Positions 12,974 to 60,514 of a stretch of 64,000 bases of DNA are shown one piece after another. The notes under the pieces were generated by a model. That model saw only the letters and a list, made by a program, of their open reading frames with translations. It ran no database searches and had not been told where the DNA came from. This DNA is from Thermomicrobiales bacterium (GTDB lineage Bacteria > Chloroflexota > Chloroflexia > Thermomicrobiales > UBA6265), in contig JAHBVL010000001.1 in assembly GCA_019637585.1 (NCBI GenBank), positions 372,001 to 436,000 on the forward strand, read 5' to 3'. Position 1 is the stretch's first letter, and each line of letters starts with the position of its first letter. The translations under genes were made by a program, and so were the position numbers.

Positions 12974-13888
12974 ATGACTGCCCAAACGTCAACACCCGAT
13001 GCAGCAACGACCTTCGTTGTCCCGGCGTCCCCGACCGGATGGCGCCGGCTCCTTCGCGATCTGAGGCGCAGCACCAAGGGGATGACCGGCGCGATCCTGG
13101 TCGGATTGGCGATTCTGGCTGCGCTGTCCGCACCGATTGTGGCGCCTCACCAACCGACCAGCCAGGCGGTTCGGGGCCGGTTCGCCGAGCCGTTTTTCCT
13201 CGATTCGAGCACCGACTATCCCCTGGGTGGCGACAATCTCGGCCGCGACATTCTGAGCCGTGTGCTCTATGGAGCGCGGGCATCGCTGGCTATCTGTTTT
13301 CTGGTGACCATTGTGGCTGCGGCGGTCGGGTCGGTGTTGGGGGCGGTTGCCGGTTTCCGGGGAGGTGTGATCGACACGCTGATCATGCGAACCGTCGATC
13401 TCCAGCTCTCGATACCCTTCATTCTGCTGGCGATGATCGTGCTGGCCGTGCTCGGTCCCGGTTTCTGGAGCGTCTTTGTGGCGCTGGCGTTGGCATTATG
13501 GGTCAACTATGCCCGGCTGGTGCGGGGTGAAACCTTGCGAATCCGGGAGATGGAGTACGTCCTCTCGGCCAGAACGATCGGCGCCAACGAGCGACGCCTG
13601 ATGACGAAGCACGTGCTGCCTAATATGCTTCATTCGATTCTGGTGCTGGCCACGCTGGATATGGCGTTTGTCATCATCTTCGAGGCGTCGCTCACCTTCC
13701 TCGGTCTCGGTATCCAGCCCCCCACGCCAACGTGGGGCTACATGCTGAGCGAGGGACGCAACTATCTGCAGGAAAGTCCGTGGATGACCGTCTTTCCCGG
13801 CGGCGCGATCATTCTCACGGTTGTCGGCATCAATCTGCTCGGCGACTGGCTGAGGGATACGTTCGATCCGAGTTTGAGGAACAGATAG
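12974..13888 (+). CDS. ABC transporter permease, DppC/OppC type
   Basis: A 304-residue permease. The periplasmic segment FFLDSSTDYPLGGDNLGRDI is the hallmark of DppC proteins (HPLGTDxLGRD), and EYVLSARTIGANERRLMTKH is the coupling loop. Six hydrophobic segments are visible after a cytoplasmic N-terminus of about 35 residues that contains an amphipathic stretch. It pairs with the upstream DppB-like subunit. The stop codon is followed within a few bases by a heptamer array. Confidence 0.93.
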   Translation: MTAQTSTPDAATTFVVPASPTGWRRLLRDLRRSTKGMTGAILVGLAILAALSAPIVAPHQPTSQAVRGRFAEPFFLDSSTDYPLGGDNLGRDILSRVLYGARASLAICFLVTIVAAAVGSVLGAVAGFRGGVIDTLIMRTVDLQLSIPFILLAMIVLAVLGPGFWSVFVALALALWVNYARLVRGETLRIREMEYVLSARTIGANERRLMTKHVLPNMLHSILVLATLDMAFVIIFEASLTFLGLGIQPPTPTWGYMLSEGRNYLQESPWMTVFPGGAIILTVVGINLLGDWLRDTFDPSLRNR

Positions 13889-14113
13889 GCAATGGGCACT
13901 AGGCACTGGGCAATAGGCAAAGGAGCTCCCCCCTCTCCCGCGGTCGGGAGAGGGGCCGGGGGTGAGGGATTTTTCGCCCTTCACCACATCGTCATCCCGA
14001 GCCGCGTCGAGGGACCTCTCGTTGGCGTGGGCCGGGTCGCCGATGTGCAGCGTGGCCAGACCCGAACGAGAGATTCCTCCGCTCCGCTTCGCTCCGGTCG
14101 GAATGACGAAGGC
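13889..14113 (+). repeat. Composite intergenic repeat, modules C-B-A
   Basis: Three modules in order fill the gap. C (13889-13922) is an array of 7-mers: ggcaatg, ggcacta, ggcactg, ggcaata, ggcaaag. B (13928-13970) is a hairpin ctctcccg-cggt-cgggagag followed by gggccgggggtgaggg. A (13987-14113) runs from cgtcatcccgag to cggaatgacg, with an inner inverted pair gacctctcgttgg / gaacgagagattcc. The same order recurs at 15458-15652 and 37330-37556. Confidence 0.8.
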
Positions 14114-14151
14114 GGGGTCGGAACGACGCTGATTGGGCGAGGTGAGGGACG

Positions 14152-20034: not shown

Positions 20035-20035
20035 G

Positions 20036-20217
20036 CCGGCGGCTGGCAGCGGGCAGCCGGCAGCACGACGAGGACGGTCGAGCACTTGTGGCCCGCGCTG
20101 CTGGCAACAGGTAGTCGAGACAGGAGGAACTCAATCGGATGTTCAAAATAATCGCGGACTGCCGGTCACCGGCTAATCCCATCTCACTGCCTGCTGCCTG
20201 CTGCCGGCTGCCCGCTC
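20036..20217. repeat. Gene-less cassette bounded by inverted GGCAGCN heptamer arrays
   Basis: Left array (20036-20067): ggcagcg, ggcagcc, ggcagca units. Right array (20186-20217): ctgcctgctgcctgctgccggctgccc, the same units inverted. About 118 bp separate them, including gaggaactcaatcggatg, with no supported gene. It fills the whole gap between the AcoX-like gene and the enolase-superfamily gene and ends one base before the latter's ATG. Confidence 0.78.
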
Positions 20218-25524: not shown

Positions 25525-25670
25525 AGTAGGCAAAAGGCAAAAGGCAAAAGGCACTCTCCCCTCTCCCGCGGTCGGGAGAGGGGCCGGGGGTGAGGGATAT
25601 CCCACGGTTGGGAGAGGGGTCGGGGGTGAGGGATATCCCGCGGTCGGGAGAGGGGACGGGGGTGAGGGAA
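25525..25670 (+). repeat. Heptamer array plus three tandem B hairpins
   Basis: ggcaaaa x3 and ggcactc (25529-25554) are followed by three B units: 25556-25598, 25601-25634 and 25636-25669. The second reads cccacggttggg rather than cgcggtcggg, keeping a hairpin with changed arms. It lies between the fused permease and ATPase genes, so it is transcribed within that operon. Confidence 0.8.
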
Positions 25671-29103: not shown

Positions 29104-29226
29104 ACGGAATCCTCCTCACCGAGATGTGATCTCAATGATGACTCTGGTCCCAACCAGTGCCGGGACGTGAACTGCTGCGTTCGTGCAAAATCTTACGCTA
29201 CTCGTGGTCGCATGTAAACCATTTTC

Positions 29227-29308
29227 GAGGCGGAGAGGCGGAGAGGCGGAGAGGCGGAGAGGCGGAGAGGCGGAGAGGCGGAGAGGCGGAGAGGCGGAGA
29301 GGCGGGGA
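29227..29308 (+). repeat. Octamer tandem repeat (GGCGGAGA)n
   Basis: About ten uninterrupted copies of the 8-mer ggcggaga lie 120 bases upstream of the binding-protein gene start, then decay to ggcggggagacggg. It is a pure purine-rich tract on this strand, prone to copy-number change. Related 8-mers occur inverted at 47284-47310 (cgcctttc cgcctatt cgcctctc). Confidence 0.9.
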
Positions 29309-29335
29309 GACGGGAGGACGGGGAGACGGGCGATC

Positions 29336-29361
29336 GTAGTTCGGGCACCTGTGGCCCGACG
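29336..29361 (+). repeat. D element hairpin (tcgggcacctgtggcccga)
   Basis: gtagttcgggcacctgtggcccgac has a 6-bp stem (tcgggc/gcccga). Other copies: 33310-33333 (plus), 34256-34281 (minus) and 47206-47230 (minus). All are in gene junctions, next to heptamer or octamer arrays. Confidence 0.75.
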
Positions 29362-29379
29362 AGGCAGGGAGACGGGATC

Positions 29380-29958
29380 CTAGGGCAAGGAGAACTCGAG
29401 TTCATCCAGAACATCGTCGATCAGCCAGCGGCCATCCTGCTTCACCAGGAAAAAGCCAAACCGCTTCTGCACCGGGATGAGTGCCGGATCGAGGATGACG
29501 GTGGCGTAGACGCGGCCGTCGGGAAGGCGCTGGGGGTTTTCGACACCGAGAACGATCGTGTGCTCGTCCGTATCGACCGGCCGGGGCGTGGCGAGCGCGG
29601 TCAGCTCGGTTGGCGATTGGGTGGCCAGAATGTGGTGGAGGTAGTCGTCGGAATAGAGCGCGTATGCGCGCAGAGTCTCTCCGGCATTCAGGCAGGCGAA
29701 GAGGTGGGCGATCGTGGCCTCGATCTCCTTGGCGACATCGTCATCGACCGGCAGACCCGCCGGCGCCGAAAACGCGACCGGCGATCCGCCGGCCGGCACT
29801 GGCGTCGCCAGGATGGCCGTCAGCTCCTCGATAGTCCGGGGGGCGACGTCACAATGCGCGGCCGCTGGCGTCTGTGCCCGGATACCGGGTGCGGTCACGC
29901 TTCCCAGACAGATTGCCGCCACGATCACGAGCGGCAGACGAACATCGCGAAGCGGCAT
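29380..29958 (-). CDS. Secreted NTF2-like hypothetical protein
   Basis: A 192-residue protein from the ATG at 29958. The first about 28 residues (PLRDVRLPLVIVAAICLGSV..., then IRAQTP) form a Sec signal peptide with an Ala-Gln cleavage area. The mature half shows helix LFACLNAGETLRAYALYSDD and a C-terminal strand set ending in KQDGRWLIDDVLDEL, the usual end of SnoaL/NTF2-like cone folds. No catalytic residues can be assigned. Upstream in-frame codons run through an A-type repeat and are not thought to be translated. Confidence 0.7.
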   Translation of the reverse strand: MPLRDVRLPLVIVAAICLGSVTAPGIRAQTPAAAHCDVAPRTIEELTAILATPVPAGGSPVAFSAPAGLPVDDDVAKEIEATIAHLFACLNAGETLRAYALYSDDYLHHILATQSPTELTALATPRPVDTDEHTIVLGVENPQRLPDGRVYATVILDPALIPVQKRFGFFLVKQDGRWLIDDVLDELEFSLP

Positions 29959-30016: not shown

Positions 30017-30352
30017 TCGTCATTCCGACCGAAGCGGAGGGATCTCTCGTTCGGGCCTGAGCATGCTGCGAATCGCCAACCCGGCCTACGCCAACGAGAG
30101 GTCCCTCGACGCGGCTCGGGATGACGATGTGATGATGCGCGGGCAGCGAAAGCGCCATGAATGGCGAGGCTACGCGTCGATTTCATGCTGTGCTGGTGCC
30201 CTCAGGTGCCCGGCGCGGCGGCTCGGGATGACGCTGTGATTCGGGGCGGGATGTCCCTTACCCCCGACCCCCGCGGGATGTCCCTCACCCCCCGACCCCT
30301 CTCCCGCGGTCGGGAGAGGGGAGAATTCCAGTGCCCAGTGCCCAGTGCCCAG
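30017..30352 (-). repeat. Composite repeat in reverse orientation (A, palindrome, B, heptamers)
   Basis: On the minus strand the order is C-B-A. A spans about 30017-30130 (cgtcattccgacc ... ctcgggatgacg). Then comes the short palindrome shared with 4305-4335 (30138-30175), a partial D-like stretch, B at about 30250-30323 with an extra ccctta-cccccga repeat, and the heptamers cccagtg x3 at 30329-30352. The 29959-30378 gap holds nothing else I can support. Confidence 0.75.
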
Positions 30353-30378
30353 TCAACTCGCCGACCAGCAGACGAACA

Positions 30379-30996
30379 TCAAGACGGGTTCGTTTCGGCC
30401 AAACAGGCGACCATTCTGACGAACATCTCCACGCAATCCTCGTCAGACAGTCCCCGCTGCTGCGCCAGCAACCGCCAGGTCGGCAGCGATACAGCCAGTG
30501 CGATCGATTGTCTGATGAACGGTGATGAAGCGTTGTCGTCTGGAAATCCAAGCGTCAGTACGGCTACTGCGGCTTCCCAGTACTCCACCAATGGCTGCAA
30601 AAGCTGAGAAAGCGTGGGGTTCTCAGCAACACCATGTTCGGCTGCCGTCATCATCCGGACGTTCTCTCGATGATAGGCGAACACGTCCGCCAGGGCCTTC
30701 CGCAATCGCTCTATCGGATCCTCGATCGCCGTCCAGGTTGCCAGATCAGGCAGCGGATGTTGCTCCATATAGTGGGACGTACATGCGGTGAGCAGTGCGA
30801 GTTCGTCGGGGAAGTGCCGGTAGAGCGTAATCCGGCTGATGCCGGCAACGCGGGCAACTTCGCTGATCGTGGCCGCGTTGCCTTTGCTCTGGTGCATGGC
30901 AATGGCCGCGTCGACGATCCGCTGACGAGTTTCCGCTTCGCTAACCGCCCGCTTTCGCTTGCGGTAGGTGCGGGTTGCCGGAGTCGAGGGGCACAT
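30379..30996 (-). CDS. TetR-family transcriptional regulator
   Basis: A 205-residue repressor. The HTH lies near residues 45-70: ATISEVARVAGISRITLYRH then FPDE, the standard TetR recognition helix. The C-terminal ligand/dimer domain is all-helical. It is transcribed divergently from the cupin gene with 115 bp between, which suggests it controls that gene and itself. No clear palindrome was found in the gap. Confidence 0.92.
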   Translation of the reverse strand: MCPSTPATRTYRKRKRAVSEAETRQRIVDAAIAMHQSKGNAATISEVARVAGISRITLYRHFPDELALLTACTSHYMEQHPLPDLATWTAIEDPIERLRKALADVFAYHRENVRMMTAAEHGVAENPTLSQLLQPLVEYWEAAVAVLTLGFPDDNASSPFIRQSIALAVSLPTWRLLAQQRGLSDEDCVEMFVRMVACLAETNPS

Positions 30997-33225: not shown

Positions 33226-33403
33226 CAGGCAAAAGGCAAAGGGCAAACGGCAAAAGTAGCCAGATTCCCTCAGTTCAATGCCCTCACTCTTACGCGGTCA
33301 GTAGTCCGTAGTTCGGGCACCTTTGGCCCGACGTGATGGCAGGGCACAGGTCCCTGCACTACGCTTGCCAATCTCCCTTTGCCCTTTGCCCCTTGCCTAT
33401 CTC
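33226..33403. repeat. Gene-less cassette bounded by inverted GGCAAAG heptamer arrays
   Basis: Left array (33233-33255): ggcaaaa, ggcaaag, ggcaaac, ggcaaaa. Right array (33372-33398): ccctttgccctttgccccttgcc. Between lie about 115 bp containing a D hairpin (33310-33333). It fills the gap between the SDR stop and the dehydrogenase ribosome site. Confidence 0.8.
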
Positions 33404-35489: not shown

Positions 35490-36110
35490 TTGGCAAAAGG
35501 CAAAGGGCAGAAGGCAGAAGTGAGGGAGAGGTCATGACGATCCCTGTGAGCGTTCGATTGCGTTGGACAGCGCCGTTACGCGCGCAGTAAGTGTGGTGAT
35601 TGCAGCAACGACATTCTGGGCGGAGGATGAATCGAGGTATGCCAACCGCTCAGCGATGAGGATCTGCGTCTTCATCTCGCTCAACGAACCTCGGGCTATC
35701 GACAGGAACCGGAGATAGTCGGCAGTCCTGTTGCGGGCGTTGCCTTCGGCAATGTTGGAAGGCACGGACACGGCAGCCCGCCGCAGTTGAGAGGTCAATC
35801 CATACAGCTCATCTTTTGGAAAGCTCTCGGTCATCTTGTAGATCAGAACGGCCAGGTCGATGCCATCTCTCCAGACGCGAAGGTCGGTGAAATCGCGGAC
35901 CCCGTCGTACATCGGCGATGGTTCCTCGATGGTAAATCTGGCAGAGGGTCGTTTCTCGGGATCCATATGCCAGAGGTAGCTAATCTCGCTACCCATTGCG
36001 TCCATCAGCTCGTCCGGAAGCAATTCATCGTCTTCCATCTTGACATCTCCCAGCCACCAATTACGCTTCTTTGCCCTTTGCCCTTTGCCCTTTGCCCTTT
36101 GCCCTTTGCC
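35490..36110. mobile_element. Candidate cassette 1: inverted heptamer arrays around a four-helix-bundle gene
   Basis: Left array (35491-35520): ggcaaaa, ggcaaag, ggcagaa, ggcagaa. Right array (36070-36110): six near-perfect tttgccc units, the inverse of the left. Between lies a single gene, the four-helix-bundle protein at 35532-36038. The cassette sits between the aminotransferase start and the Bmp binding-protein terminator. Its plan matches that at 48346-48875, which uses a different heptamer. Mobility is inferred from architecture only. Confidence 0.6.
35532..36038 (-). CDS. Four-helix-bundle protein (S23/23S rRNA IVP-like), copy 1
   Basis: A 168-residue helical protein. From about residue 47 it shows the family pattern DFTDLRVWRDGIDLAVLIYK, FPKDELYGLTSQLRRAAVSV, then PSNIAEGNARN and FLSIARGSLSEMKTQ. 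These proteins occur in intervening sequences of 23S rRNA genes and, as Avd, in retroelements; none has a known enzymatic activity. An N-terminal acidic extension of about 45 residues is unlike copy 2; the start is supported by gggag 8 bases upstream. About half of the core residues match copy 2 at 48406-48843. Confidence 0.9.
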   Translation of the reverse strand: MEDDELLPDELMDAMGSEISYLWHMDPEKRPSARFTIEEPSPMYDGVRDFTDLRVWRDGIDLAVLIYKMTESFPKDELYGLTSQLRRAAVSVPSNIAEGNARNRTADYLRFLSIARGSLSEMKTQILIAERLAYLDSSSAQNVVAAITTLTARVTALSNAIERSQGSS

Positions 36111-37329: not shown

Positions 37330-37667
37330 ATGGGCATAGGGCAAAAGGCAAAGGGCAATAGGGAATGGGAAATGGAATTCTCCCCTCTCCCGCGGTCGGG
37401 AGAGGGGTCGGGGGTGAGGGATATTCCCGCCCCCAACCACATCGTCATCCCGAGCACGGTCGAGGGACCTTTCGTTGGGGTAAGCCGGGTCGCCGATTTG
37501 CAGCGTCGCCAGACCCGAACGAGAGATTCCTCCGCTTTGGTCGGAATGACGAAGAGGGTGGGCGGAATGATGATGCGGGCGAGTATGTCCCTCACCCCCG
37601 GCCCCTCTCCCGACCGCGAGAGAGGAGAGACTATCTCCCAGTGCCCAGTGCCCAGTGCCCAGTGCCA
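37330..37667. repeat. Full symmetrical composite repeat C-B-A-B'-C'
   Basis: Left C (37338-37375): ggcaaaa, ggcaaag, ggcaata, then ggaatgg variants. B at 37380-37422, A at 37439-37556, an inverted B' at 37587-37631, and inverted heptamers cccagtg x4 at 37640-37666, ending at the stop codon of the permease gene. It is the only copy with both arms and looks like a complete unit with inverted ends. The 450-bp gap holds no gene. Confidence 0.8.
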
Positions 37668-46615: not shown

Positions 46616-46617
46616 TG

Positions 46618-46804
46618 GCAAAGGGCAAAAGGCAATGGGCAAAGGGCCGGAGATATAGTTCGAGATGTGGACATGGTGCGTGTGGTGGGAAATTGGGCCG
46701 CTCACGCCTCTTCAGGAGATCCTCGCCGAGGCCAGTGAGGCATGCGCCATGTCCGCGGGCAGCATTTCCTCCACTATTGCCTTTTGCCTCTTGCCCTTTG
46801 CCCA
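46618..46804. repeat. Gene-less cassette bounded by inverted GGCAAAG heptamer arrays
   Basis: Left array (46618-46647): ggcaaag, ggcaaaa, ggcaatg, ggcaaag. Right array (46776-46803): attgccttttgcctcttgccctttgccc. About 125 bp between, no gene seen. It fills the junction of the cupin stop and the aldolase start codon. Confidence 0.8.
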
Positions 46805-47185: not shown

Positions 47186-47204
47186 GTCACGTTCCCTTTG
47201 GAGC

Positions 47205-47310
47205 GGGCGGGCCACAGGTGCCCGAACTACATCTTCGAAATCCCTCACCCCCAGCCCCTCTCCCGCGGTCGGGAGAGGGGAGCTCGTCGCCTTTCCGCCT
47301 ATTCGCCTCT
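47205..47310. repeat. D + B + octamer repeat block
   Basis: A D hairpin (47206-47230), an inverted B hairpin (47241-47282), then 8-mers cgcctttc, cgcctatt, cgcctctc (47288-47311). On the minus strand the order is octamers, B, D. It lies between the M29-type gene stop and the cupin ribosome site. Confidence 0.75.
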
Positions 47311-47314
47311 CCGC

Positions 47315-48322
47315 TCACAAGGCCCATTTCCCGTCCTTGACGATGTACTGCCCGGTGTCCTCGATCAGCAGGGAGGCGTTCAGGCAGTTGCCGTCGAGGT
47401 GGAGTTTGCTCACGTTTTTGCCGCCGGGATAGGCGTTGTGATTGTCGCCGAGGGCGAAGTGGACGGTGCCGAGCAGACCTTTTTCTGATGGTGAGCCGGT
47501 GGGCGATTTCTCGCTGGTGCCGAAGGCGAACTCACCGATCACCGTGGCACCGTCGACTCCCGCGATCACCCTCTTCAGCCGCTCGGCTTCCTCGCCACCT
47601 TCGATGGCCACCGCTTTGCCCCCTTCGACCCGCCATTCGATTGGGTTCGGGGTCTGGCCGGGCAGACCGATGCCGAGCATGATGCCGTCGACCACGATGC
47701 GGCCCTCGGTCTTGTCCTCGACCGCGGCGAACGCGACCTCTGCCCAGAGCGGGATCGGTCCCATCATCTGACCGCGTTTCTTGATCGGGGTGACTTCGAG
47801 GGCCGGACGTCCCTCGATACAGACCCGGACATCGGTGCCGGCTGGCGACGTGACCCGGCACCACTTGGCGCCTTCCATGGCGGCAATAGCGGCTTTGGCC
47901 CGGTCGGTAGCGTCGATGATGTCGGCTTTGGTCATGTTCCAGGAGCCGATCCCCTCTTCCACCGAAGCGATCTTGGCGTTGTTGTCGCACGACTCGCGAA
48001 CGGCCGAGACGTGGGCAAACCGGTTCGCCCATTCGAGGTTGGTGATGATGATGATCTCGTCCGAGGTGACCATCGATTGATGGAGATTGCGCGGCGGCGC
48101 CATCGGGAAGGTCATGTCGGCAATCGCCCGCTTGACCTGGTACTCGTTGTTGCAGACGACCGGAAAACCGCCGTGCTCGACGACGATCTGGGCCAACGCG
48201 TCGGCTTCGGTGGTGTGGTCGTTGTCGGTAATGATGGTGACGACGTCACCTTCCTCAACTGACATGCAGACGCCGACGATCAGTTCGGCGTCGGTTCGGA
48301 GACCTTTGGATAGTTCAGCCAC
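47315..48322 (-). CDS. M29-type metallopeptidase or dihydroxypyridine-dioxygenase-like protein
   Basis: A 335-residue protein with the Thermus aminopeptidase T (M29) plan. VIGEFAFGTSEK gives a Glu, GTVHFALGDNHNAYPGG gives a His and a Tyr, and SKLHLDG gives the His-x-Asp pair, all metal-site residues of the fold. The same fold is used by NicX, the iron-dependent 2,5-dihydroxypyridine 5,6-dioxygenase of nicotinate breakdown. Next to a molybdenum hydroxylase cluster, a ring-cleavage role deserves equal weight with peptidase activity. Confidence 0.78.
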   Translation of the reverse strand: MAELSKGLRTDAELIVGVCMSVEEGDVVTIITDNDHTTEADALAQIVVEHGGFPVVCNNEYQVKRAIADMTFPMAPPRNLHQSMVTSDEIIIITNLEWANRFAHVSAVRESCDNNAKIASVEEGIGSWNMTKADIIDATDRAKAAIAAMEGAKWCRVTSPAGTDVRVCIEGRPALEVTPIKKRGQMMGPIPLWAEVAFAAVEDKTEGRIVVDGIMLGIGLPGQTPNPIEWRVEGGKAVAIEGGEEAERLKRVIAGVDGATVIGEFAFGTSEKSPTGSPSEKGLLGTVHFALGDNHNAYPGGKNVSKLHLDGNCLNASLLIEDTGQYIVKDGKWAL

Positions 48323-48345: not shown

Positions 48346-48875
48346 AACTGGTAACTAGTAACTAGTAACTGGTAACTGGTATCAGGATCCAGATCTTGTA
48401 CAGACTTACCTCGGCTTCTTGCTGGCCAACGATGTGTGCAGTGAGGAGATCTGTTTCATCAGGCTCTCGATTTCTTGGATGACTTGCACGCTTTCCAGCT
48501 CTTGAAGATATCCCTCCCCAGCCGCAAGGAGCACTTGCGTTTTCATTTCGCCGAGAGAACCGCGAGCAATCAACAGGAATCGCAGGAATTCTCCATGCTG
48601 GTTGCGAGAATGACCCTCAGCGATATTGGAGGGAACTGAAACAGCGCATCGACGAAGCTGACTCGTGAGGCCGAATTGCTCCTCCCGTGGGAACTGGCGG
48701 GTCATCCTATAGATCACCGACGCGAGCTTCATTCCTTGCTGCCAAACCCGAAGATCAGTGAAATCCCGAATCGTGGTCTCGGCGCTTTGTTGTGGCAAGT
48801 CGACTACGCCCCTCTCACGAAGTACTCCAGTTCCATCAACCACCAGTTGCCAGTTACCAGTTGCCAGTTACCGAC
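48346..48875. mobile_element. Candidate cassette 2: inverted GGTAACT arrays around a four-helix-bundle gene
   Basis: Left array (48346-48382): aactggtaactagtaactagtaactggtaactggt. Right array (48842-48873): accagttgccagttaccagttgccagttacc, the inverse. The only gene inside is the four-helix-bundle protein at 48406-48843. Both ends use the same 7-mer, which differs from that of cassette 1. It is inserted between an M29-type gene and an LLM oxidoreductase gene on the same strand. Confidence 0.6.
48406..48843 (-). CDS. Four-helix-bundle protein (S23/23S rRNA IVP-like), copy 2
   Basis: A 145-residue protein with DFTDLRVWQQGMKLASVIYR, FGLTSQLRRCAVSVPSNIAE and RFLLIARGSLGEMKTQ, all in register with copy 1. 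The GTG start at 48843 lies inside the right heptamer array, so the ribosome site would be in repeat DNA; a later start is possible. The family binds RNA or nucleic acid by its basic surface in known cases, but no activity is established. Rather different C-terminal tails show that the copies are not a recent duplication. Confidence 0.88.
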   Translation of the reverse strand: MVDGTGVLRERGVVDLPQQSAETTIRDFTDLRVWQQGMKLASVIYRMTRQFPREEQFGLTSQLRRCAVSVPSNIAEGHSRNQHGEFLRFLLIARGSLGEMKTQVLLAAGEGYLQELESVQVIQEIESLMKQISSLHTSLASKKPR

Positions 48876-49896
48876 TGTCGCGGAATGCCGGAAGGACCTC
48901 CTTTGCGAAGCGCTCCACCTGCCCGAACTGATCCAACGACCCAAACCGGCAGATGAAGTAATCAACGCCTGCCGCCGAGAATGTCTTGATCCAGTCGATG
49001 ACGTCGTCGGGGGTTCCGATGGGGCCCCACTCCAACAAATCCATGGCTTTGCTCAGCTCGGGGTAGTACTGGCTGATGTAGGAATTGATGCCGGCGTGGG
49101 CTTCTTCCCGGGTGTCGGCGATGTTCATCGTCACCTGGTAGGACATGACGTACTCGGAGCGGTCCCGGCCGGTTTCGGCGATGGCGTCGTCGACTTGCGC
49201 CAGCTGGGCGGCGAACTCCTCCGGATGGCGGGCGCGACAGCAGGTCATCCAGCCGTCGCCATATTTGGCGATGCGGCGGGCGGCTTTGCTGATGACCTTT
49301 TCGGTTTTCGCTTCTTCTTTGGTTCCCACCGTGAGGCGGGGATTGCTGACCACCCAGATGGGGGGTGGCGACTGCACCGGCATGAGCGGTTTCATCTCGG
49401 TGCCCGAGTAGAAAGAGATGTTGTCGTACTTGAAGAATTCGGTGTCGAGATTCACCGTACCCGTGGTCCAGAGCTGGCGGAGGGCGTCCATGCCATCTTC
49501 GAAGATGCGGGCTCGTTTGTCGAAATCGAGACGGACGGCCGCGTATTCGCGCCGGACCCCCTCCTCGGGGTTGCCCATACCGGTACCGAGGATCGTTCTT
49601 CCATTGGAAAGGTGATCGAGCGTGGCCCATTCGAGCGCCAGATAGAGTGGGTCGCGGGTGCCGGAAACCATGCAGGCGGTGCCGAGTTTGACCTTTTTCG
49701 TGCGTTGGGAGATGGCGGCGAGGGTGGAGATCGGTTCGTATCGCGGTTTGGAGAAGAGACTATCCCCCACCCAGACCGAATCGAACCCCTCCCGCTCGAC
49801 GACTTCCGACAGATCGAGGAGATCGGTCAAGGAGTAGTCGGGTGCGATCAATGGCTCGCGGTTGTTCAGATTGACGCCGAATGTCGGATTGCCCAC
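48868..49896 (-). CDS. LLM-class flavin/F420-dependent oxidoreductase
   Basis: A 342-residue TIM-barrel oxidoreductase. FDSVWVGDSLF, the strand TKKVKLGTACMVSGTRDPLY, then LSNGRTILGTGMG are typical of the luciferase-like/mer family that uses FMN or coenzyme F420. GRTILGTGMGNPEEG is the phosphate-binding segment. It is transcribed right after the GntR regulator gene and may oxidise or monooxygenate the pathway substrate. Its last residues overlap the right array of cassette 2. Confidence 0.9.
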   Translation of the reverse strand: MGNPTFGVNLNNREPLIAPDYSLTDLLDLSEVVEREGFDSVWVGDSLFSKPRYEPISTLAAISQRTKKVKLGTACMVSGTRDPLYLALEWATLDHLSNGRTILGTGMGNPEEGVRREYAAVRLDFDKRARIFEDGMDALRQLWTTGTVNLDTEFFKYDNISFYSGTEMKPLMPVQSPPPIWVVSNPRLTVGTKEEAKTEKVISKAARRIAKYGDGWMTCCRARHPEEFAAQLAQVDDAIAETGRDRSEYVMSYQVTMNIADTREEAHAGINSYISQYYPELSKAMDLLEWGPIGTPDDVIDWIKTFSAAGVDYFICRFGSLDQFGQVERFAKEVLPAFRDSR

Positions 49897-50699: not shown

Positions 50700-53117
50700 C
50701 TACGATTCCCGAGACGCTGGATCGTCCGTTTGTGTACCGCCATCCTTCCGAAGGACCCAGGCTGCCGCTACGGCAGCGCTACCGGCAAGGATGGCTCCGG
50801 TCCAGCCGGAGGTTTGCGCATCTGGTCCGGCTCCGGTCGAAGGAAGCGTATCGACCGTGTCGGTGCCGCCCGACTTCGGCGGTCGCTTCTTCCGTTTGCA
50901 GTGGCCGTCGACGCACCGGTAGCCCTTGCAGCAGGGCGCTTTTTCATCACAGGCGGCTTTTTCTCCCACGCAGTGCGCATGCTTGCCGCAGGTTCCGTGA
51001 ATGCACTGCAAACCGTCGCAGCAGTCTTCGTCTTCGCTGCAATCGGCGCCCTTGTGCCGGCAGGCGATTTCGCACATGCAGGTCTGGTCGTTCCAGAGGG
51101 CGAGAGGATCGCAGCATTCGAACAGGGCGTCTTCGCCGGGGACGCAGCGACCGGGTATGGCGTCGGTGAGCAGGCAGGCGACGCACGCGTATTCCACGCA
51201 GGTGATATCGAAGCGTGGGTCGTCGTTGCAGCAGTCGAGTGTGTCACTGCAATACTCGCCATGCTTGGCGCATGAGGTCTCGTCTGTGTCGTCCGGGGGC
51301 AGACAGACGCGCGGCTCGACATCACTGCAGATGCCGGAACAGCACTGCTCGTCGTCAGTGCAATCGGACTGAATCGAGCGGCAGCCGCAGTTGTTCATGT
51401 CGCAGTTGTGGCTGCAGCAGGCCTGTTCGGTAGCGCAATAGACCCCTTCACCGTCGGCCAGGCAGGGAACGCAGCATCCGCCGCTGCAGAATTCATCTCC
51501 GTCGCAGTGTGCGTCCGTGAAGCAGGAGACGCCGTTCTCACAGAGAACGCGGCACTCGCAGTTGTTCGGGTTGTAGATGGCGTTCGCCTCGCAGCACACC
51601 GGGGTCGATTCACCGCAGGCAGGATTGGTGACATTCGATTCCAGGCAGTCCTGAACGCACAAACCCTGAGAGCACGTTGCTGCTCCGCAGCAATCCTCCG
51701 ATGCATCGCAGGTGGCGTTGAGTGGCTGGCAGCATACGTCTGATTCGCAGGCCGCCGTTCCACAGCACTGTGTGCTGCTGTTGCACGAGGCTCCGATATT
51801 GAGGCAGCACACGCTGGCAGTGTCATCGCAATTGCTGGAGCAGCAGGTGTCGTTGCTCTCGCACGCGGCGCCGATCGCCGAGCAGTAGGCGCAGAACCCG
51901 CTTGCGTTGCACAGCAGTCCGGTTTCGCAGCAGTCGATATCTGCAGCGCATGCCGCTCCCTCGAGGCAATCGGGGACGCATTCGCCACTCGAGCAGATGT
52001 GGCTTGGGCAGCAGTCGCCGGTGACGTCGCAGTCCCCTTCGGTGGGGACGCAGCAGGTGCCGCTGTCGCAGGTCAGGCCGTCTTCGGTGCAGCATTCCGA
52101 GGCGAGCGTACAGGATTCGTTGATGCCGCCGCACGTTTCCTCCTCGACGCAGAATCCATTGATGCAGCTCAGCGATCCGCAACAGCCGGAATCGATGCAC
52201 GCTTCACCGCTGGCCAGACAGCAGACGCCAAACTCGCACGTCTCGGAGCAGCATTCGTCGGCCGAGGCGCAGGTGTTGTCAATGGCGAGGCAGGGCGGGA
52301 CACATGTCTGGAATGAACAAACCAGGTCGCCGCAGCATTCGACATTAACGGAACAAAACTGGTCCTCGAGCACGCAGCAGGAGCCGCCATCCGGATCGCA
52401 GACCTGGCTGCAACACTCGCTGCTTTCTGCACACGTGTCACCTATGGCGAGGCAGGATGGCTCATCGACTGCGCAGAACCCATTGTCGCAAACCAGGCCG
52501 GTGCAGCAGTCGTCCGACGTGCCACACGCGATTCCGGCCGGAGCGCAGCACTGACCGCTTTCGCAGTTCAGGTCGCCGCAGCATCCTCCACCTGGACACG
52601 TATCGCCGAGTATGTGGCAACAGCCGCCGCTTTCGCAGGTCCCGCTGCAACACTGGGCATCACTCGTGCAGTCATGGCTCGTGGCGAGACAACTCAAGCA
52701 GACGTGCGCCGTGTCATCGCAGGTCCCGCTGCAGCAATCAAACCAATACGGATGTCCGCCGCCGGGCTGGCAGAGATGTCCATCCACTGAACAGGCTGCG
52801 GAGCAGGATCCTGTTTCGTCGCATCCTCCGCAACAGCGGGTGCAACAGCTGGGGTCACCGGATGAGCTGCAATCGACTCCAGTCTGGCAGTTGTTCCGGC
52901 AGCTGGAGGTCCCGTCGCCATCGGAGAGGCACAGCAAATAGGGATCGCAGTCGGCATTCGTCGTGCAATCCTCGCCAAGTCCGGCGGCCTGTGTCTTCTG
53001 ATGGACGGCGACGGCCGCGCCACCTCCCAGCACGCCGCCAATCCACTTGACCAGCGAACGCCGGGATACCCCCGACGCGAACACCCGCGTCAGGTCATCG
53101 AACCGTCGATCGTCCAT
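50700..53117 (-). CDS. Giant cysteine-rich surface protein with Tat leader and LPSTG tail
   Basis: An 805-residue protein. Residues 1-45 are a Tat leader (RRFDDLTRVFASGVSRRSLV, then a Gly/Ala hydrophobic core). The middle is a long series of short units such as GDTCAESSECCSQVCDPDGG and ASADECCSETCEFGVCC, with paired CC and spaced Cys like small disulfide-knot domains. The end is TLPSTGAGPD, a hydrophobic helix and RKDGG, i.e. an LPxTG sorting signal. Export folded by Tat with disulfides, then wall or surface anchoring, is inferred. No sortase gene is in the window. Function is unknown. Confidence 0.85.
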   Translation of the reverse strand: MDDRRFDDLTRVFASGVSRRSLVKWIGGVLGGGAAVAVHQKTQAAGLGEDCTTNADCDPYLLCLSDGDGTSSCRNNCQTGVDCSSSGDPSCCTRCCGGCDETGSCSAACSVDGHLCQPGGGHPYWFDCCSGTCDDTAHVCLSCLATSHDCTSDAQCCSGTCESGGCCHILGDTCPGGGCCGDLNCESGQCCAPAGIACGTSDDCCTGLVCDNGFCAVDEPSCLAIGDTCAESSECCSQVCDPDGGSCCVLEDQFCSVNVECCGDLVCSFQTCVPPCLAIDNTCASADECCSETCEFGVCCLASGEACIDSGCCGSLSCINGFCVEEETCGGINESCTLASECCTEDGLTCDSGTCCVPTEGDCDVTGDCCPSHICSSGECVPDCLEGAACAADIDCCETGLLCNASGFCAYCSAIGAACESNDTCCSSNCDDTASVCCLNIGASCNSSTQCCGTAACESDVCCQPLNATCDASEDCCGAATCSQGLCVQDCLESNVTNPACGESTPVCCEANAIYNPNNCECRVLCENGVSCFTDAHCDGDEFCSGGCCVPCLADGEGVYCATEQACCSHNCDMNNCGCRSIQSDCTDDEQCCSGICSDVEPRVCLPPDDTDETSCAKHGEYCSDTLDCCNDDPRFDITCVEYACVACLLTDAIPGRCVPGEDALFECCDPLALWNDQTCMCEIACRHKGADCSEDEDCCDGLQCIHGTCGKHAHCVGEKAACDEKAPCCKGYRCVDGHCKRKKRPPKSGGTDTVDTLPSTGAGPDAQTSGWTGAILAGSAAVAAAWVLRKDGGTQTDDPASRES

Positions 53118-54424: not shown

Positions 54425-54820
54425 AAGCGGCGATCCCTTGTGGTCGCCCACGGCCCGGAGGGCCGTAAATTGCCGTCGTTCACCACGATGTCATGGTTGG
54501 GCTCGGTGTGCGAATGCGGCGGTTGTGGCTCCGTTCCGCTCCACTTCGTTGCGCTCCACTCCGCCACCGGCGGGGACAAGCCACCGCCGCTACGATGGGC
54601 ACGCGGCAGGGCGAACACCGGCCGGTCGTAGCGGCGATCCCTTGTGGTCGCCGACGGCCCGGAGGGCCGTAGATTGCCATTGTCAACACGATGTCATGGG
54701 TTGGGCTCCGTGTGTGAATGCGGCGGTTGTGGCTACGATGCGCACGTGGCAGGGCGAACGCCGTCCGGCCGTAGCGGCGATCCCTTGTGGTCGCCGATGC
54801 CCCGGAGGGGCATAAATCGC
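54425..54820 (+). repeat. Three REP units upstream of the RAYT gene 3' end
   Basis: Cores at 54425-54474, 54628-54678 and 54771-54820 read gtagcggcgatcccttgtgg then tcgcc and a second hairpin. The second hairpins are acggcccggagggccgt (54450-54466 and 54654-54670) and atgccccggaggggcat (54797-54813), where both arms change together. Longer flanks (ttgggctcggtgtgcgaatg...) are also repeated. All have the same orientation. The 54410-54879 gap holds no gene. Confidence 0.85.
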
Positions 54821-54879: not shown

Positions 54880-55386
54880 CTACGAGGGTTCGCCGGTCAG
54901 TACGATTCCGCTGAGATAGGGGTATTCCTCCCAGGATTCGGCCAATCCTTCTTTGACCGGATTGTCGAGGATGTATCGGACGACCTCGTCGAATTGCTGC
55001 GGGGTGCGAACGCCGCGGTCGTAGAAGCGTCGCTGCCATGGTGATCCCTGACTACCAAAAGCCCACCACTCACGCGCGATACAGGACTTCACGTCCCCGA
55101 TCACCGCGACCAGATCGTCGTTTCGCACTTCCAGCAGCAGGTGGATGTGGTCCGGCATCACACAGGCAAGGTGCATCAGACAATCACGCGCTTCACACCG
55201 ATGGGCGACTGTTTCGATGATGCGGGTGCGAAGTGCTTCATTGGCAAATGGAGGAGGATTCATCTGTCGAGTAGCCAGTGTGACGTGCCAAACCGAACCG
55301 GCCAACGCGTATGCCTCCCCCGGTAGGCGAATCTTGCGCCGATCGCGGGTGGACCAGTCGATGTCGAGCCGTTCTTCGTCGTCCAT
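54880..55386 (-). CDS. REP-associated tyrosine transposase (RAYT, Y1 HUH family)
   Basis: A 168-residue protein from the ATG at 55386 (DDEERLDIDWSTRDRRKIRL). MPDHIHLLLEV is the HUH metal motif, WQRRFYDRGVR and the end YILDNPVKEGLAESWEEY are characteristic of RAYT proteins; the catalytic Tyr is probably in the latter half (RFYDRG or YILDN). RAYTs are single-copy domesticated transposases that act on flanking REP hairpins. Here five REP copies lie within 550 bp on both sides, so the pair is complete. Confidence 0.9.
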   Translation of the reverse strand: MDDEERLDIDWSTRDRRKIRLPGEAYALAGSVWHVTLATRQMNPPPFANEALRTRIIETVAHRCEARDCLMHLACVMPDHIHLLLEVRNDDLVAVIGDVKSCIAREWWAFGSQGSPWQRRFYDRGVRTPQQFDEVVRYILDNPVKEGLAESWEEYPYLSGIVLTGEPS

Positions 55387-55431
55387 ATGCCGTCCCCCGT
55401 CGTCAGACACGAATTGTGGTCGGTCACCCTC

Positions 55432-55730
55432 GTAGCGGCGATCCCTTGTGGTCGCCGACGGTCCGGAGGACCGTAAATTGCCGTCGTTAACCGCGATGGC
55501 AAGGTTAGGCTCCGTGTGCGAACGCGGCGATTGTGGCTCCGTTCCGCTCCACTTCGTTGCGCTCCACTCCGCCACCGGCGGGGACAAGCCGCCGCCGCTA
55601 CGGCAACCCGGGGCGGGGACAAGCCGCCGCCGTTTCGGCAACCGAGGTGGGGACAAGCTGCCACCGCTAGGAGGCCGGCCGTAGCGGCGATCCCTTGTGG
55701 TCGCCGACGGTCCGGAGGGCCGTAAATTGC
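55432..55730 (+). repeat. Two REP units upstream of the RAYT gene
   Basis: Cores at 55432-55481 (hairpin acggtccggaggaccgt, 55458-55474) and 55681-55730 (acggtccggagggccgt, 55707-55723, one T-G wobble). The first continues into a roughly 170-bp segment (to the ccgccgctacgg at about 55605) that closely matches 54427-54600, giving the RAYT long direct-repeat flanks. Between them gacaagccgccgccg-type units repeat. No gene is seen in 55387-55890. Confidence 0.85.
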
Positions 55731-55890: not shown

Positions 55891-56547
55891 GTGTCCGAGC
55901 AAACCATCGATCGTCTCGCCCGAGCAGTTGCGATGCGCGGCAGCCGCAGGCGTCTGCTAGCCGGGGCGCTGGGTGGTGCTGGCGCGGCACTCATCACGCG
56001 GCTGCCGGTGGGCGCCCAGCCATGCCAGTTGGACAACCAGTGCAGTGGTGACTTCACCTGCCAGGGAGGGTTTTGTGAGGCGCCGGGATGTACGGCAAGT
56101 GGCAACACCTGCTCGAGCAACAACGATTGCTGCAGCGAATTGCTTTGTGTGAATGGCGTTTGTGGCGTCGGGTCCCGGTGTGGACGTGAAGATGAGCTCT
56201 GCGGGAATGGTTGCTGTCCGGGACTCACCTGCGCTGCTGGCTATTGCGCTGCCGATACCCCGGCCCCACCCGAAAACAATGGAGGAGGGGGCAGCGGGAA
56301 TGGAGGCGCCGGCGGTGGCGGGTCGAATGGCGGCGGGTCGGGAGCGGGAGGGTCAGGCGGCGGTTCCGGCACCACGACCGGAGGTGTTGCCGTCGCGTCC
56401 CTGCCGTCGACTGGCGCGGGTACGCCGGCGCCGAGCGGGATTCCCGCGGCGCTGATCGCACTGGCGGGCGCTGCCGGATTCGCCTCGATCGCAAGCCGCG
56501 GCCGGTCTCGGCCCGAGAGCACGGGCCCGGCATCTCAGGATTCCTGA
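55891..56547 (+). CDS. Small cysteine-rich surface protein with Tat leader and LPSTG tail
   Basis: A 218-residue protein from a GTG. The leader is RGSRRRLLAGALGGAGAALI, a Tat-type signal. Residues about 45-120 have Cys units (GNTCSSNNDCCSELLCVNG). A Gly/Ser/Asn-rich flexible linker (about 130-170) follows, then ASLPSTGAGTP, a hydrophobic helix and RGRSR, an LPxTG sorting signal. It is a compact relative of the 805-residue protein, with the same anchor and a single Cys module. Function unknown. Confidence 0.83.
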   Translation: MSEQTIDRLARAVAMRGSRRRLLAGALGGAGAALITRLPVGAQPCQLDNQCSGDFTCQGGFCEAPGCTASGNTCSSNNDCCSELLCVNGVCGVGSRCGREDELCGNGCCPGLTCAAGYCAADTPAPPENNGGGGSGNGGAGGGGSNGGGSGAGGSGGGSGTTTGGVAVASLPSTGAGTPAPSGIPAALIALAGAAGFASIASRGRSRPESTGPASQDS

Positions 56548-56574: not shown

Positions 56575-56968
56575 GCCGTAGACCCCCCGTGTCTGCTTTC
56601 TCAGGGACACGTCGCTACTTCCTGCAGTGACGTGATGGACAGTCTTTCATTGCGTACGCATGCATCGAAGACAGCCGTCCGGCGAGAATCGGCAGACACG
56701 GGGGTCTGCGGCTACTGAACCTGACATCGTCTCCTTTCCCGACGAAGTGGTCAACGGTGCTTGGGTTCACGCATGCATCGAAGACAGCCGTCCGGCGAGA
56801 ATCGGCAGACACGGGGGTCTGCGACTACTGAACCTGACACCATCTGTTTTCCCGAGGAAGTGGTCAACGGTGCTTGGGTGCACGGCTGCATCGAAGACAG
56901 CCGTCCGGCGAGAATCGGCAGACACGGAGGTCTGCGGCTGCTGAACCTGACATGGTGTCTTTTCCTGG
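56575..56968. repeat. 113-bp tandem repeat, three copies, plus an inverted partial copy
   Basis: Units start at about 56661, 56774 and 56887 (exactly 113 bp apart), each with tgcatcgaagacagccgtcc, then ggcagacacgggggtctgcgg, a short hairpin. The last copy is about 80 bp. An inverted copy of the hairpin segment (gtagaccccccgtgtctgc) is at 56582-56600. The array fills most of the 56548-57187 gap upstream of the 1109-residue Cys-rich gene. A -10-like TATGAT lies at 57085-57090. Confidence 0.88.
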
Positions 56969-57187
56969 CAAGGCGACGCCTGGCCGCTCATGTGTATGTA
57001 TATATTGAAGGACATCGCCCGATCGGATCGCGGATTCGCTCGAAATTGGCCTGTTGAGCGCTATCTTTCGAGTCGGATTCTTGCTATGATGCGCTCGGGA
57101 GTTCCTGGTTTCCCTGTCAATCCAAATACCCGCATGAAAAACCTCTAGTCCCTCGGTCGACACTTCTGCTTGGAAGGGGACCTATCC

Positions 57188-60100
57188 ATGGACGACAAAC
57201 GCTTCGATCAGCTGACCCGGTTGGTCGGACAAGGCGCATCCCGGCGTTCGATTTTCAAGGGGCTCCTGGGATTGGGAGGAGCGGCGATCGCCGGCGGAGT
57301 TGCGGCTGAGAAAGTCGACGCCCGCGATCTGCGAACCCGGCCCGAGATTTCCACTCCACCTCCCCCCGCTCCAACCACGACGACATCGACCACACCGGCG
57401 CCATGCCCGGGCCAGGAACAATGCCCGAACAGCACCCTTTGTTGCCCAACCGGCACCTGCGCTCGATCCGGCAACAAAGCGATCTGTTGCGACGGCCAGG
57501 GTGGTCGCGGTTCGGTGGTGTGCGGGCGGGAATGCTGCGATTCCATCTACAGCTGCTGCGACCGTGAATGCTGCCCTGATGGCGCGACTTGTCTGACCTC
57601 CGTTTTCGAGGAGGGACCCAATGTCCAGGAAGAGGTCTGCTGCCCAAGTCATCTGGCCTGCGACAACCAATGTTGCGACGGGCAGTGCTACGACGAGTTT
57701 GCCGGGCTCGTCTTGAATGGTCACCCGCTTGTGATCGCAGACCTCAGCTGCTGCCCGAGTGACGGAATCGTCTGTGACACCGCCTTTGGCGAGTACTCCT
57801 GCTGCCACGGCGACACCCCCAAGTGTTGCGAGCGACTCGGCGAAGCGCCCGGCGCATGTGTGGCAACAGGCGGTTGCTGCAATGCTGGTGATTGCGTCGA
57901 TCTGCATCCGGGCACCCACCAGTCGTGCTGGACATGCGAGAACTGGACCTGCGTGCCGGCCGAGAATGACGTCGCCTGTGGCGATGCTCCCGGCGAAGTC
58001 TGTTGCGATCAGGTTTGCTGTTCCGCCGGGCAAATCTGCGTCGAAGAACCGGAAGGCGATGTCGGGCCCGCCCAGGAATCGCACATCTGCGTCACCACGA
58101 CAACGACGACGACGACAACCACGTCGACGACAACGTCCACAACGACATCGACGACCACGACGACGCCCGAATGTCTGCCGGTCGGCGCGACCAACTGCGC
58201 AGCCGGCGGCCCTCCGTGCTGCTCTGGCTTCTGCATCAACAACACGTGCGCGGATGGATGTAGTGACGTCGGTGAGCCCTGCAATGGACCGCTGCATTGC
58301 TGCGGGGAGATGTTCTGCAACTCCCAAGCAACGTGTGGGTGCCGACCAACCGGCTTCACCTGCAACGAAGGGGATTGCTGCGACGGGGCCACTTGTGCGG
58401 ACGATGGGAATGGCGTCCTGAGATGTCAGCCCGCCGCAACCACAACAACCACCTCGACGACGACGACCACGTCCACGACCACCACCACGTCGACCACGAC
58501 CACACCCGAGCCGACGACCACGACGACGCAACTCTGCGTTGTCTGTCCGGGTGCGCCGGAGGGGGATCCCTGCTGCAATCTGAGCGCTGGTCAGACATGT
58601 GCCGGCAACGGATGGTGCTGTGCGGCAGACCGGGTGGCCTGCGAGGATGGCTGCTGCGGACCGTGCCAGATCTGCAATCCCGACGGACCAGGATGCATCC
58701 CGGTCTTGACGAATGGTGAATTCTGCTCAGATCCGGACAATGGGTATGCGCCTGGTATTTGTTGTGAAGGAGACTGCCGATCCGGGCAGGTGATCGTCTG
58801 TCCGGGGCAAAACGCCAACTGTTGCCCATCGCTCGACCAATGCGCTGGCAATGGCGACTGCTGCTCCACGGACCGGCCAGCCTGCGGAGCGACCTGCTGT
58901 GAATTCTGCGAGGTGTGCCTGGACCCGATGACGAGCACCTGCGGCCCCGCTCCTGACCAGACGGTGTGCTGGGACCCAACGATGGGATACGCGCAGGGGG
59001 TCTGCTGCAGCGGCGGCTGTCTGGGCAACCAAACCAGCTGCCCGACCACAACCCCGGCCTGCCCGGCTCCCGGCTCCTGCGCCAATGGAGGGGGCAACGT
59101 TCCGGATGGCTGCCCGTGCAATGGCGGAAGTGGCGTTTGCGCCGGTGGCTGGTGCTGCGAACCGGCTTTGCTCTGCGGGAGCTCATGTTGTTCAGGCGAC
59201 GATGAATGCGTCGAGTGCCAGAGCGACCAGTGCGTGAACATCAATCAAGGCGGCTTATGCAACGGCGGCGCCGGCATCTGCAGCGGCCCGTCGTGCGTCA
59301 ACCCGCCGGCGACGACCACCACCACGCCATGCCCGGATACCTGTCTATACCGGTGTGGTGATTGGGTGCTCTGCGGCGTGGAAACGGAGTGCGACGACTG
59401 CCCGGACGGCCAGTTCTGCATCGCCAACGAAGCAGGCGAGGGTTGGTGCTGCCCGGGCACCAGTCTGGGCACCGATGACAACTGTCGCTGGTGTGGTGAT
59501 TCCTGTCCGTCCGGTGAAACGTGCCTCGATGATGGTAGCGGCGGATTTGTTTGCGGGCCACCCCCATGCGTCGACGAGACGTTCACCTGTCTCTACAAGT
59601 GCGGTCCGTGGAACGACGAGTGCGGAGTCGAATACAACTGCAACTGCGAGGGTTTCATCGCTGACGAGTGGTTCTGCACGTCCGCAGGCTGGTGCTGCGA
59701 GGGAACCGGCCTTGGCACTGATGACAACTGTCGCTGGTGCGGCGATGCCTGTGGCGCCGGTGACACCTGTCAGAGCGTTGGGGAAGGCGCATTCGACTGC
59801 CTTCCGGAGGTGACGACAACCCCCGAACCAGCGTGCGATCCCCGCGTTGATTGCGTCAATGTTCAGACGCCGCAGTGCACCGATCTCTGTCCCCCTGGAT
59901 CGCAATCAGGCAACAACAGGGGATTGGCGGGAACGTGCTGCAATGGGAATGGACAATGCTGTTCGAACAGCTGCACGAATGATGTTTGCGACCCCGTTGC
60001 CGGAGAACAGACAACAGCGCCGCCTGATCCAACCACAACGACGGTAGCTTGTCTTCCCACCTCGACGATTCCGAATCCAGTCACCTGTTCGGAGAGCAGC

Positions 60101-60514
60101 GAGTGCTGCAGCGGCTGCTGCGAGTACTTCCTGGGACAGGGCCCGTTCTGCCGGAACGCCAGCGTCTGCGCGAGTTGCAGCGGTCTCGGCCGTATCTGCA
60201 CCTCCGACGATGAGTGCTGCAGCGGTTGTTGCCAGGGCGACGATACGGTCGGCACGGGTCTCTGCGCCCCGGCATTCACCTGCGAAGTCATCAACGCTTC
60301 TGAACCGGTCGATGGGTTTGTTGCCGATGAACCGGAAAGCTGTGAGACCTGTGAGTCGCTCGGGCTCTGGTGTGGCTCAGCGCATGATGGCTGCGGCAAT
60401 GTGCTCGACTGCGGTGCATGTTGCCAACCGCTCACTTGCGCCGAGCTTCGCGTACCCTGTGGTCCAACCGTCGACAATTGCGGCGACACAATCGACTGCG
60501 GACCCTGCGGGTAG
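57188..60514 (+). CDS. Giant Tat-exported cysteine-rich protein with threonine-rich linkers
   Basis: A 1108-residue protein from the ATG at 57188, preceded by ggaaggggacc. The Tat leader (KRFDQLTRLVGQGASRRSIF, then Gly/Ala core) closely matches the other two large family leaders. Cys-rich modules, many with CC and DNCRWCGD-type motifs, are separated by Thr-rich linkers (about residues 300-325 and 415-450; bases 58090-58165 and 58435-58530). The C-terminus has repeated HDGCGNVLDCGACC-style units and no LPxTG. The linkers look ideal for O-glycosylation. Extracellular, disulfide-rich structural or adhesive role is inferred. Confidence 0.85.
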   Translation: MDDKRFDQLTRLVGQGASRRSIFKGLLGLGGAAIAGGVAAEKVDARDLRTRPEISTPPPPAPTTTTSTTPAPCPGQEQCPNSTLCCPTGTCARSGNKAICCDGQGGRGSVVCGRECCDSIYSCCDRECCPDGATCLTSVFEEGPNVQEEVCCPSHLACDNQCCDGQCYDEFAGLVLNGHPLVIADLSCCPSDGIVCDTAFGEYSCCHGDTPKCCERLGEAPGACVATGGCCNAGDCVDLHPGTHQSCWTCENWTCVPAENDVACGDAPGEVCCDQVCCSAGQICVEEPEGDVGPAQESHICVTTTTTTTTTTSTTTSTTTSTTTTTPECLPVGATNCAAGGPPCCSGFCINNTCADGCSDVGEPCNGPLHCCGEMFCNSQATCGCRPTGFTCNEGDCCDGATCADDGNGVLRCQPAATTTTTSTTTTTSTTTTTSTTTTPEPTTTTTQLCVVCPGAPEGDPCCNLSAGQTCAGNGWCCAADRVACEDGCCGPCQICNPDGPGCIPVLTNGEFCSDPDNGYAPGICCEGDCRSGQVIVCPGQNANCCPSLDQCAGNGDCCSTDRPACGATCCEFCEVCLDPMTSTCGPAPDQTVCWDPTMGYAQGVCCSGGCLGNQTSCPTTTPACPAPGSCANGGGNVPDGCPCNGGSGVCAGGWCCEPALLCGSSCCSGDDECVECQSDQCVNINQGGLCNGGAGICSGPSCVNPPATTTTTPCPDTCLYRCGDWVLCGVETECDDCPDGQFCIANEAGEGWCCPGTSLGTDDNCRWCGDSCPSGETCLDDGSGGFVCGPPPCVDETFTCLYKCGPWNDECGVEYNCNCEGFIADEWFCTSAGWCCEGTGLGTDDNCRWCGDACGAGDTCQSVGEGAFDCLPEVTTTPEPACDPRVDCVNVQTPQCTDLCPPGSQSGNNRGLAGTCCNGNGQCCSNSCTNDVCDPVAGEQTTAPPDPTTTTVACLPTSTIPNPVTCSESSECCSGCCEYFLGQGPFCRNASVCASCSGLGRICTSDDECCSGCCQGDDTVGTGLCAPAFTCEVINASEPVDGFVADEPESCETCESLGLWCGSAHDGCGNVLDCGACCQPLTCAELRVPCGPTVDNCGDTIDCGPCG

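Follow-up and report, generated by a model that had tools for sequence, protein, structure and literature searches.

To our knowledge, the proteins of the S23/IVP family have remained without a known function since their discovery in the intervening sequences (IVS) of 23S rRNA, and we know of no agreed origin for the heptamer repeats of bacterial genomes. The family itself, the 23S rRNA IVS and bacterial heptamer repeats, including the inverted pairs of Xanthomonas, are already known. The closest described system is the 23S rRNA IVS of Coxiella, which, according to the accessible part of the source, contains an S23-family ORF and measures about 430 nt, its complementary ends being able to pair into a single long stem (PMC4990558), features it has in common with the cassettes described here. 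Heptameric SSRs have been described as GGGAATC in Xanthomonas and GGGGA(C/T)T in Nostoc, with 70 and 75 inverted heptamer pairs in two Xanthomonas genomes (PMC4692102, of which only part was available), and as TAACTGA in Beggiatoaceae (PMC4679880). Like the arms of the cassettes, these repeats are tandem, intergenic, near stop codons and between aligned ORFs. As far as the available portions go, both papers treat single heptamer units as regulatory or slippage motifs, and the terms S23 and four helix are absent from the text of either (PMC4692102; PMC4679880). The solved S23 protein (2gsc) is XCC0516 of Xanthomonas campestris, and the solved member of the family is, judged by the title of a reference alone, an assembly of five four-helix bundles. 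No open-access paper was found that links S23 genes to heptamer arrays or describes such cassettes, a search that did not cover the subscription literature.

REP and REPIN elements are short palindromic repeats of intergenic regions whose presumed mover is a chromosomal protein acting in trans. The palindrome of a REP is fixed, in contrast to the tandem arrays of variable unit at the ends of S23 cassettes, and Y1 genes do not seem to track S23 in the genomes compared. MITEs and insertion sequences resemble S23 cassettes in occurring as gene-bearing and gene-less forms with common ends; however, the ends of S23 cassettes vary within one genome, no transposase is known and no consistent target duplication was seen. 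Finally, the Avd protein of diversity-generating retroelements belongs to a fold family homologous to S23, as noted in the accessible part of PMC10053308, but the S23-bearing host genome studied here is without a reverse transcriptase (0 RVT_1 matches).

The focal element, cassette 2, consists of an S23/23S-rRNA-IVP (PF05635) gene between inverted tandem GGTAACT arrays at positions 48346-48872 of the window, which is the whole stretch of 64,000 nucleotides that was analysed; arrays and array pairs are given without strand throughout. The first-pass annotation had claimed a cassette with matching GGTAACT/AGTTACC ends, and this is borne out. The left inverted arm (48346-48381) is composed of about five copies of the tandem heptamers AACTGGT/AACTAGT and the right inverted arm (48842-48872) of 2.2 copies of ACCAGTTGCCAGTT, read on the minus strand as GGTAACT alternating with GGCAACT. 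All eight matches to GGTAACTGGTAACT in the window (at most 2 mismatches) fall inside these two arrays, as compared to 0.05 expected, and 0 of 100 shuffles reach 8. The enclosed gene (48406-48843, minus strand; 145 codons, exact start codon uncertain) codes for a four-helix bundle protein that scores well above the curated profile cut-offs (PF05635, E=1.6e-36, 125.2 bits vs 33.8; TIGR02436, E=5e-34, 116.8 bits vs 24) and matches PDB entry 2gsc at 7.1e-27.

Cassette 2 occupies the gap between an LLM-class F420-dependent oxidoreductase-like gene located upstream in the operon (48868-49896; orthologues in 5 relatives at 76-88% identity) and an M29 peptidase-like gene located downstream (47315-48322; PF02073, 5.8e-12), all three on the minus strand. 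On the right, the array extends over the LLM stop codon (48868-48870) and the element ends at approximately 48872 and not 48875, while the left array stops just short of the start of the M29-like gene. Cassette 2 is located between two protein genes and not in an rRNA gene. Unlike the 23S rRNA IVS, S23 cassettes moreover end in tandem 7-8-mer arrays with a unit differing from copy to copy, and have gene-less relatives with the same unit scattered in the genome. The duplex of the two arms of cassette 2 is predicted at -45 kcal/mol. A search for a promoter-like site inside cassette 2 found none, and PADLOC gave no match.

Cassette 1 of the same window is built from a left arm of GGCAAAA/GGCAGAA (35492-35520), an S23 domain (35556-35903, minus strand; 6.2e-38, 54% identity) and a right arm with CTTTGCC six times (36069-36110). 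The proposals that the two cassettes have the same architecture with different heptamers, enclose proteins of one family at about 50% identity and carry their genes on the operon strand all held: the units are GGCAAAA/GGCAAAG versus GGTAACT, the proteins are 53% identical over 119 aligned residues and each gene shares the strand of its neighbours. The host genome (3.94 Mb) encodes six S23 copies, all between inverted tandem arrays and each with its own unit (five heptamers, one octamer). They are 36-53% identical to one another and, in a quick tree with relatives, do not group as a single clade (p-AU 0.014). As the units differ among the six copies, the terminal inverted repeat common to all copies that would define an insertion sequence or MITE is lacking. 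On the other hand, the definition of a heptameric tandem repeat is satisfied, with head-to-tail intergenic heptamers above chance in the window (16 period-7 arrays vs 0 in each of 5 shuffles). Several of these arrays are inverted pairs around short spacers filling stop-start gaps. A gene-less pair at 20035-20216 has the GGCAGC unit of S23 cassette L005 and fills an entire stop-start gap, pairs at 33227-33397 (GGCAAAG) and 46617-46803 (GGCAAAA) have the units of cassette 1, and a pair at 37332-37666 begins 2 nt from a stop codon and contains REP-like palindromes. An octamer array at 29227-29330 (GAGGCGGA/GACGGGGA) matches the octamer of S23 cassette L004.

The account that we consider probable, although not settled, is that the element belongs to a widespread kind of mobile cassette that resembles the IVS and is accompanied by gene-less partners resembling MITEs, with S23 as the probable mobilising protein. 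The moving unit would be inverted heptamer array, S23 gene and inverted heptamer array, landing in intergenic gaps, very often at the stop/start junction of an operon, with both neighbouring frames staying open.

The architecture is observed across phyla. Matching inverted arms with a score of at least 14 flank 95 of 121 S23 genes, as compared to 10 of 605 mismatched flank pairs from different loci, and at a score of at least 18 the counts are 62 of 121 versus 1 of 605; 26 of the 121 S23 genes score below 14. The survey comprised 80 named loci from many phyla (out of 582 confirmed loci) and relatives, and 13 of 134 S23 genes were left out for lack of 200-nt flanks. Among the 95 loci with matching arms the period is 7 in 60, 8 in 14 and 9 in 1, and is unresolved in 20; the consensus of the units, taken inward from each end, is RGKNNNN. 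Read inward, the arm is G-rich in 89 and C-rich in 4 of the 95 loci, which is used as polarity of the element only; no conclusion is drawn from how the G-rich arm lies with respect to transcription, as an inverted repeat looks identical from both strands. With respect to the gene, 42 of 71 cassettes with both neighbours close are sense to both and 4 antisense to both (13 cassettes were excluded because a neighbour is distant, and others for want of flanking sequence), and L312 exemplifies an antisense cassette. Strand counts for gene-less pairs were dropped, as the list of 50 still contained S23 arms from loci outside the S23 mask. An Rfam scan of 15 loci, most of them with low arm scores, found no rRNA. 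Among 72,556 plasmids, 30 carry S23, most of these being cyanobacterial, and none of 50,697 phage records searched does.

The focal site has been compared in six genomes with a close orthologue of the LLM gene, all six of which retain the LLM-M29 pair. Three genomes, G005, G013 and G022, have nothing in the gap; in G024 it contains a heptamer stretch that is decayed and lacks a gene, and in the host genome and G002 it is occupied by S23 cassettes with different units. The S23 protein of G002 is 52% identical to that of cassette 2, is surrounded by GGCAATA arrays and is closest to cassette 1 (59%), with its related unit GGCAAAA. Here, then, the repeat unit goes with the lineage of the S23 gene and not with the place. 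G002 has a third S23 cassette on the opposite side of the LLM gene. The first-pass annotation had considered the element an insertion and named conserved presence without signs of insertion as the observation that would refute it; this was looked for, and the six gaps just described do not show it.

Plasmids provide cleaner junctions. At site X, a 3-nt junction in three empty plasmids corresponds to a 468-nt cassette in two occupied ones (both of one strain). At site Y, five empty plasmids have 3 nt (TAG-GTT-ATG or a close variant) as compared to 420-602 nt in three occupied ones, and one further plasmid has unrelated content. At site Z, the junction measures 0-4 nt in eight empty plasmids versus 505 nt in the single occupied one. 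At all three sites the occupied junctions carry both arms, the empty junctions are without an array and both neighbouring genes remain open; together with site W, described below, these sites display presence and absence between close relatives. A consistent target duplication was not seen, with TTCTA possible at site Y and none clear at X, Z or L325. Of 19 and 15 plasmid records, 3 and 8 were examined besides the query records, and 12 of the 30 S23 plasmid records were read for arrays, representing 11 distinct cassettes as L310 and L311 carry the same one. For plasmids the cross-locus null reaches high values (99% at 22, maximum 28), cyanobacterial units being similar to one another, and the plasmid case consequently rests on the arrays and sites themselves. 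An array extending over the upstream stop codon is seen in several copies, but seeding of the unit by the target site is not claimed, since a frame entering an array stops there anyway. At L298 (690-1550), G085 has what by eye resembles a two-gene toxin-antitoxin module where G041 has an S23 cassette.

The proposal that the repeat type travels with the insertion, or is copied onto it, is supported by six pairs of S23 genes that have identities of 70% or more and lie at unrelated sites: four pairs share the unit (L317/L320, L314/L316, L313/L318 and L132/L135) and two do not (L251/L240 and L036/L023). In the pair L317/L320, the Nostoc cassette of site Y aligns with a cassette from an unrelated site in Aulosira at 81% over 418 nt, a stretch that takes in both arms and stops there, with unrelated flanks, L313/L318 are aligned over 474 nt, and L314/L316 have S23 gene and unit in common. 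As related cassettes at unrelated sites align through the arms, the unit can travel with the gene. Resemblance of arms rises with S23 protein identity, from 1.2% of pairs at 40-50% to 14% at 60-70%, 3 of 7 pairs at 70-80% and 3 of 3 above 80%, although orthologues at the same site account for many of the closest pairs. Each cassette lineage would have its own repeat unit, usually moving with the gene and able to drift or be replaced.

Gene-less arrays share units with the S23 cassettes of their genome. The S23 arms of the same genome are a better match for them than the arms of clade mates in 22 of 64 cases in the home clade and in 9 of 13 cases in Acidobacteriaceae (p<0.05); 5 of 82 gene-less arrays were left out, as their genomes provided no S23 arms, and the two arms of a pair were counted separately. 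On plasmid pNPM1 (L325), a gene-less pair of 181-182 nt has inserted into the S23 gene of a cassette whose unit it shares, as read against two uninterrupted copies, and the neighbouring site W is found empty, occupied or with nested insertions, which differ in their spacers. At one site with 97% identical flanks in two Acidobacteriaceae genomes, the first genome has an S23 cassette and the second a gene-less pair of a different unit. Across sampled stretches of 17 home-clade genomes, heptamer arrays away from S23 occur in 8 of 9 S23-bearing genomes (44 in 756 kb) versus none of 8 S23-free ones (674 kb). The S23-free genomes are, however, not independent (three of one genus, two of another) and differ in base composition. 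Of the S23-bearing ones, G012 has no arrays in 74 kb sampled and G028 is positive through one doubtful array. In Acidobacteriaceae, 4 arrays in 400 kb of S23-bearing versus 1 in 267 kb of S23-free genomes are too few to separate the groups. Short gene-less pairs with the unit of an S23 cassette may act like MITE-type partners. Broken S23 genes are found at L325, where the gene-less cassette interrupts 1462-1830, and at L246, where S23 is split into two overlapping frame pieces that its close relative L243 reads through.

The part of S23 in this process is inferred. The protein most likely would bind its cognate array and promote movement or copying in cis and trans; no catalytic domain was recognised in S23 and nothing in the data shows it moving DNA. 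As the arms are complementary, any transcript through the cassette could fold out as one long hairpin, which would probably make the cassette tolerable inside operons, as for the 23S rRNA IVS. RNase III could then remove the hairpin from the RNA, as in the Coxiella IVS, and any such RNA processing is equally an inference. An alternative is an IVS-like RNA element, with arms mainly serving RNase III to cut the cassette from the mRNA, S23 as a passenger or RNA chaperone, and movement a rare accident. The arms indeed pair strongly within a locus (median -46.5 kcal/mol vs -13.9 for mismatched loci), the host genome encodes RNase III, albeit without RNA data, and the Coxiella IVS combines an S23 ORF, a 28-bp terminal stem and excision by RNase III in vitro, according to the part of PMC4990558 that is accessible. 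Yet mismatches compatible with G.U pairing on the coding strand are not in excess of A.C-type ones (64 vs 89), giving no sign of selection for an RNA stem, and tandem heptamers and unit-sharing gene-less pairs are left unexplained. This alternative is unlikely, but retains some weight.

It is considerably less plausible that the arrays are host-made slippage tracts at gene ends into which S23 genes drop later, even though heptamer arrays are found without S23 and slippage has been proposed for bacterial heptamers in the available part of PMC4692102. Empty sites are without arrays, which already contradicts this explanation at X, Y and Z; arms are matched, inverted and of one polarity, and they move with S23 to new sites. 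Slippage could still hold for some solitary arrays.

We give as little credit to the idea that a Y1 transposase of the IS200/RAYT type moves the cassettes in trans and that S23 is a bound passenger. The window does contain a RAYT gene (54880-55656) and the host genome six Y1 genes, but 10 of 22 S23-bearing genomes, several of them incomplete, have no Y1 match and 8 of 19 S23-free genomes have one; G003 and G021, which bear Y1 and lack S23, are without arrays in 110 kb sampled, and the arms, in contrast to REPs, are no fixed palindromes. For a reverse-transcriptase route, whether like that of diversity-generating retroelements or another, in which S23 would be the Avd-type partner, a weak relationship of S23 to bAvd (PF22296, E=3e-4) and the Avd/PF05635 homology mentioned in the accessible part of PMC10053308 can be invoked, but such a route is hardly credible with no RVT_1 match in a host genome 97% complete that nevertheless holds six cassettes.

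Beyond the mobile cassette preferred here, S23/IVP proteins might mobilise a so far unrecognised class of transposable elements that spans phyla, lacks a known recombinase or reverse transcriptase, has S23-lineage-specific heptamer-array ends and moves gene-less partners in trans, a tentative proposition that we rate somewhat short of an even chance. If true, S23 cassettes would be one source of the heptamer repeats in bacterial genomes and the 23S rRNA IVS a special case of the S23 element class. The data tie the function of S23 and the origin of heptamers together, and both become testable. Eighteen IVP genes in cas loci have been reported as an associated function (PMC3936711, seen in part). 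On cyanobacterial plasmids, L314 and L321 have an S23 gene with inverted arrays, of differing units, between cas6 and cas4. Insertion between cas genes, as in these two, is a simpler account of such IVP genes than an association with CRISPR.

The window has further repeats of its own. A REP-like palindrome, CTCTCCCGCGGTCGGGAGAGGGG(A/C)CGGGGGTGAGGG, is located beside or inside heptamer array pairs at 25564-25669, 37332-37666, 13885-14151 and 30187-30420, in up to three tandem copies, and a second short repeat, CGGGCCACAGGTGCCCGAACTAC, is present at three intergenic places (29104-29400, 33255-33374 and 47200-47240). Near the REP-associated tyrosine transposase (NF047646), two copies of one short tandem repeat with the unit CGTTCCGCTCCACTT are located at 54532 and 55540. 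Two very large cysteine-rich proteins with Tat-like N-termini are encoded at 50700-53117 and 57170-60514, the first of which, like a smaller relative at 55891-56547, has an LPSTGAG motif followed by a hydrophobic tail, as in surface proteins. A tandem repeat of period 113 (2.7 copies, 91% matches) extends from 56656 to 56965.
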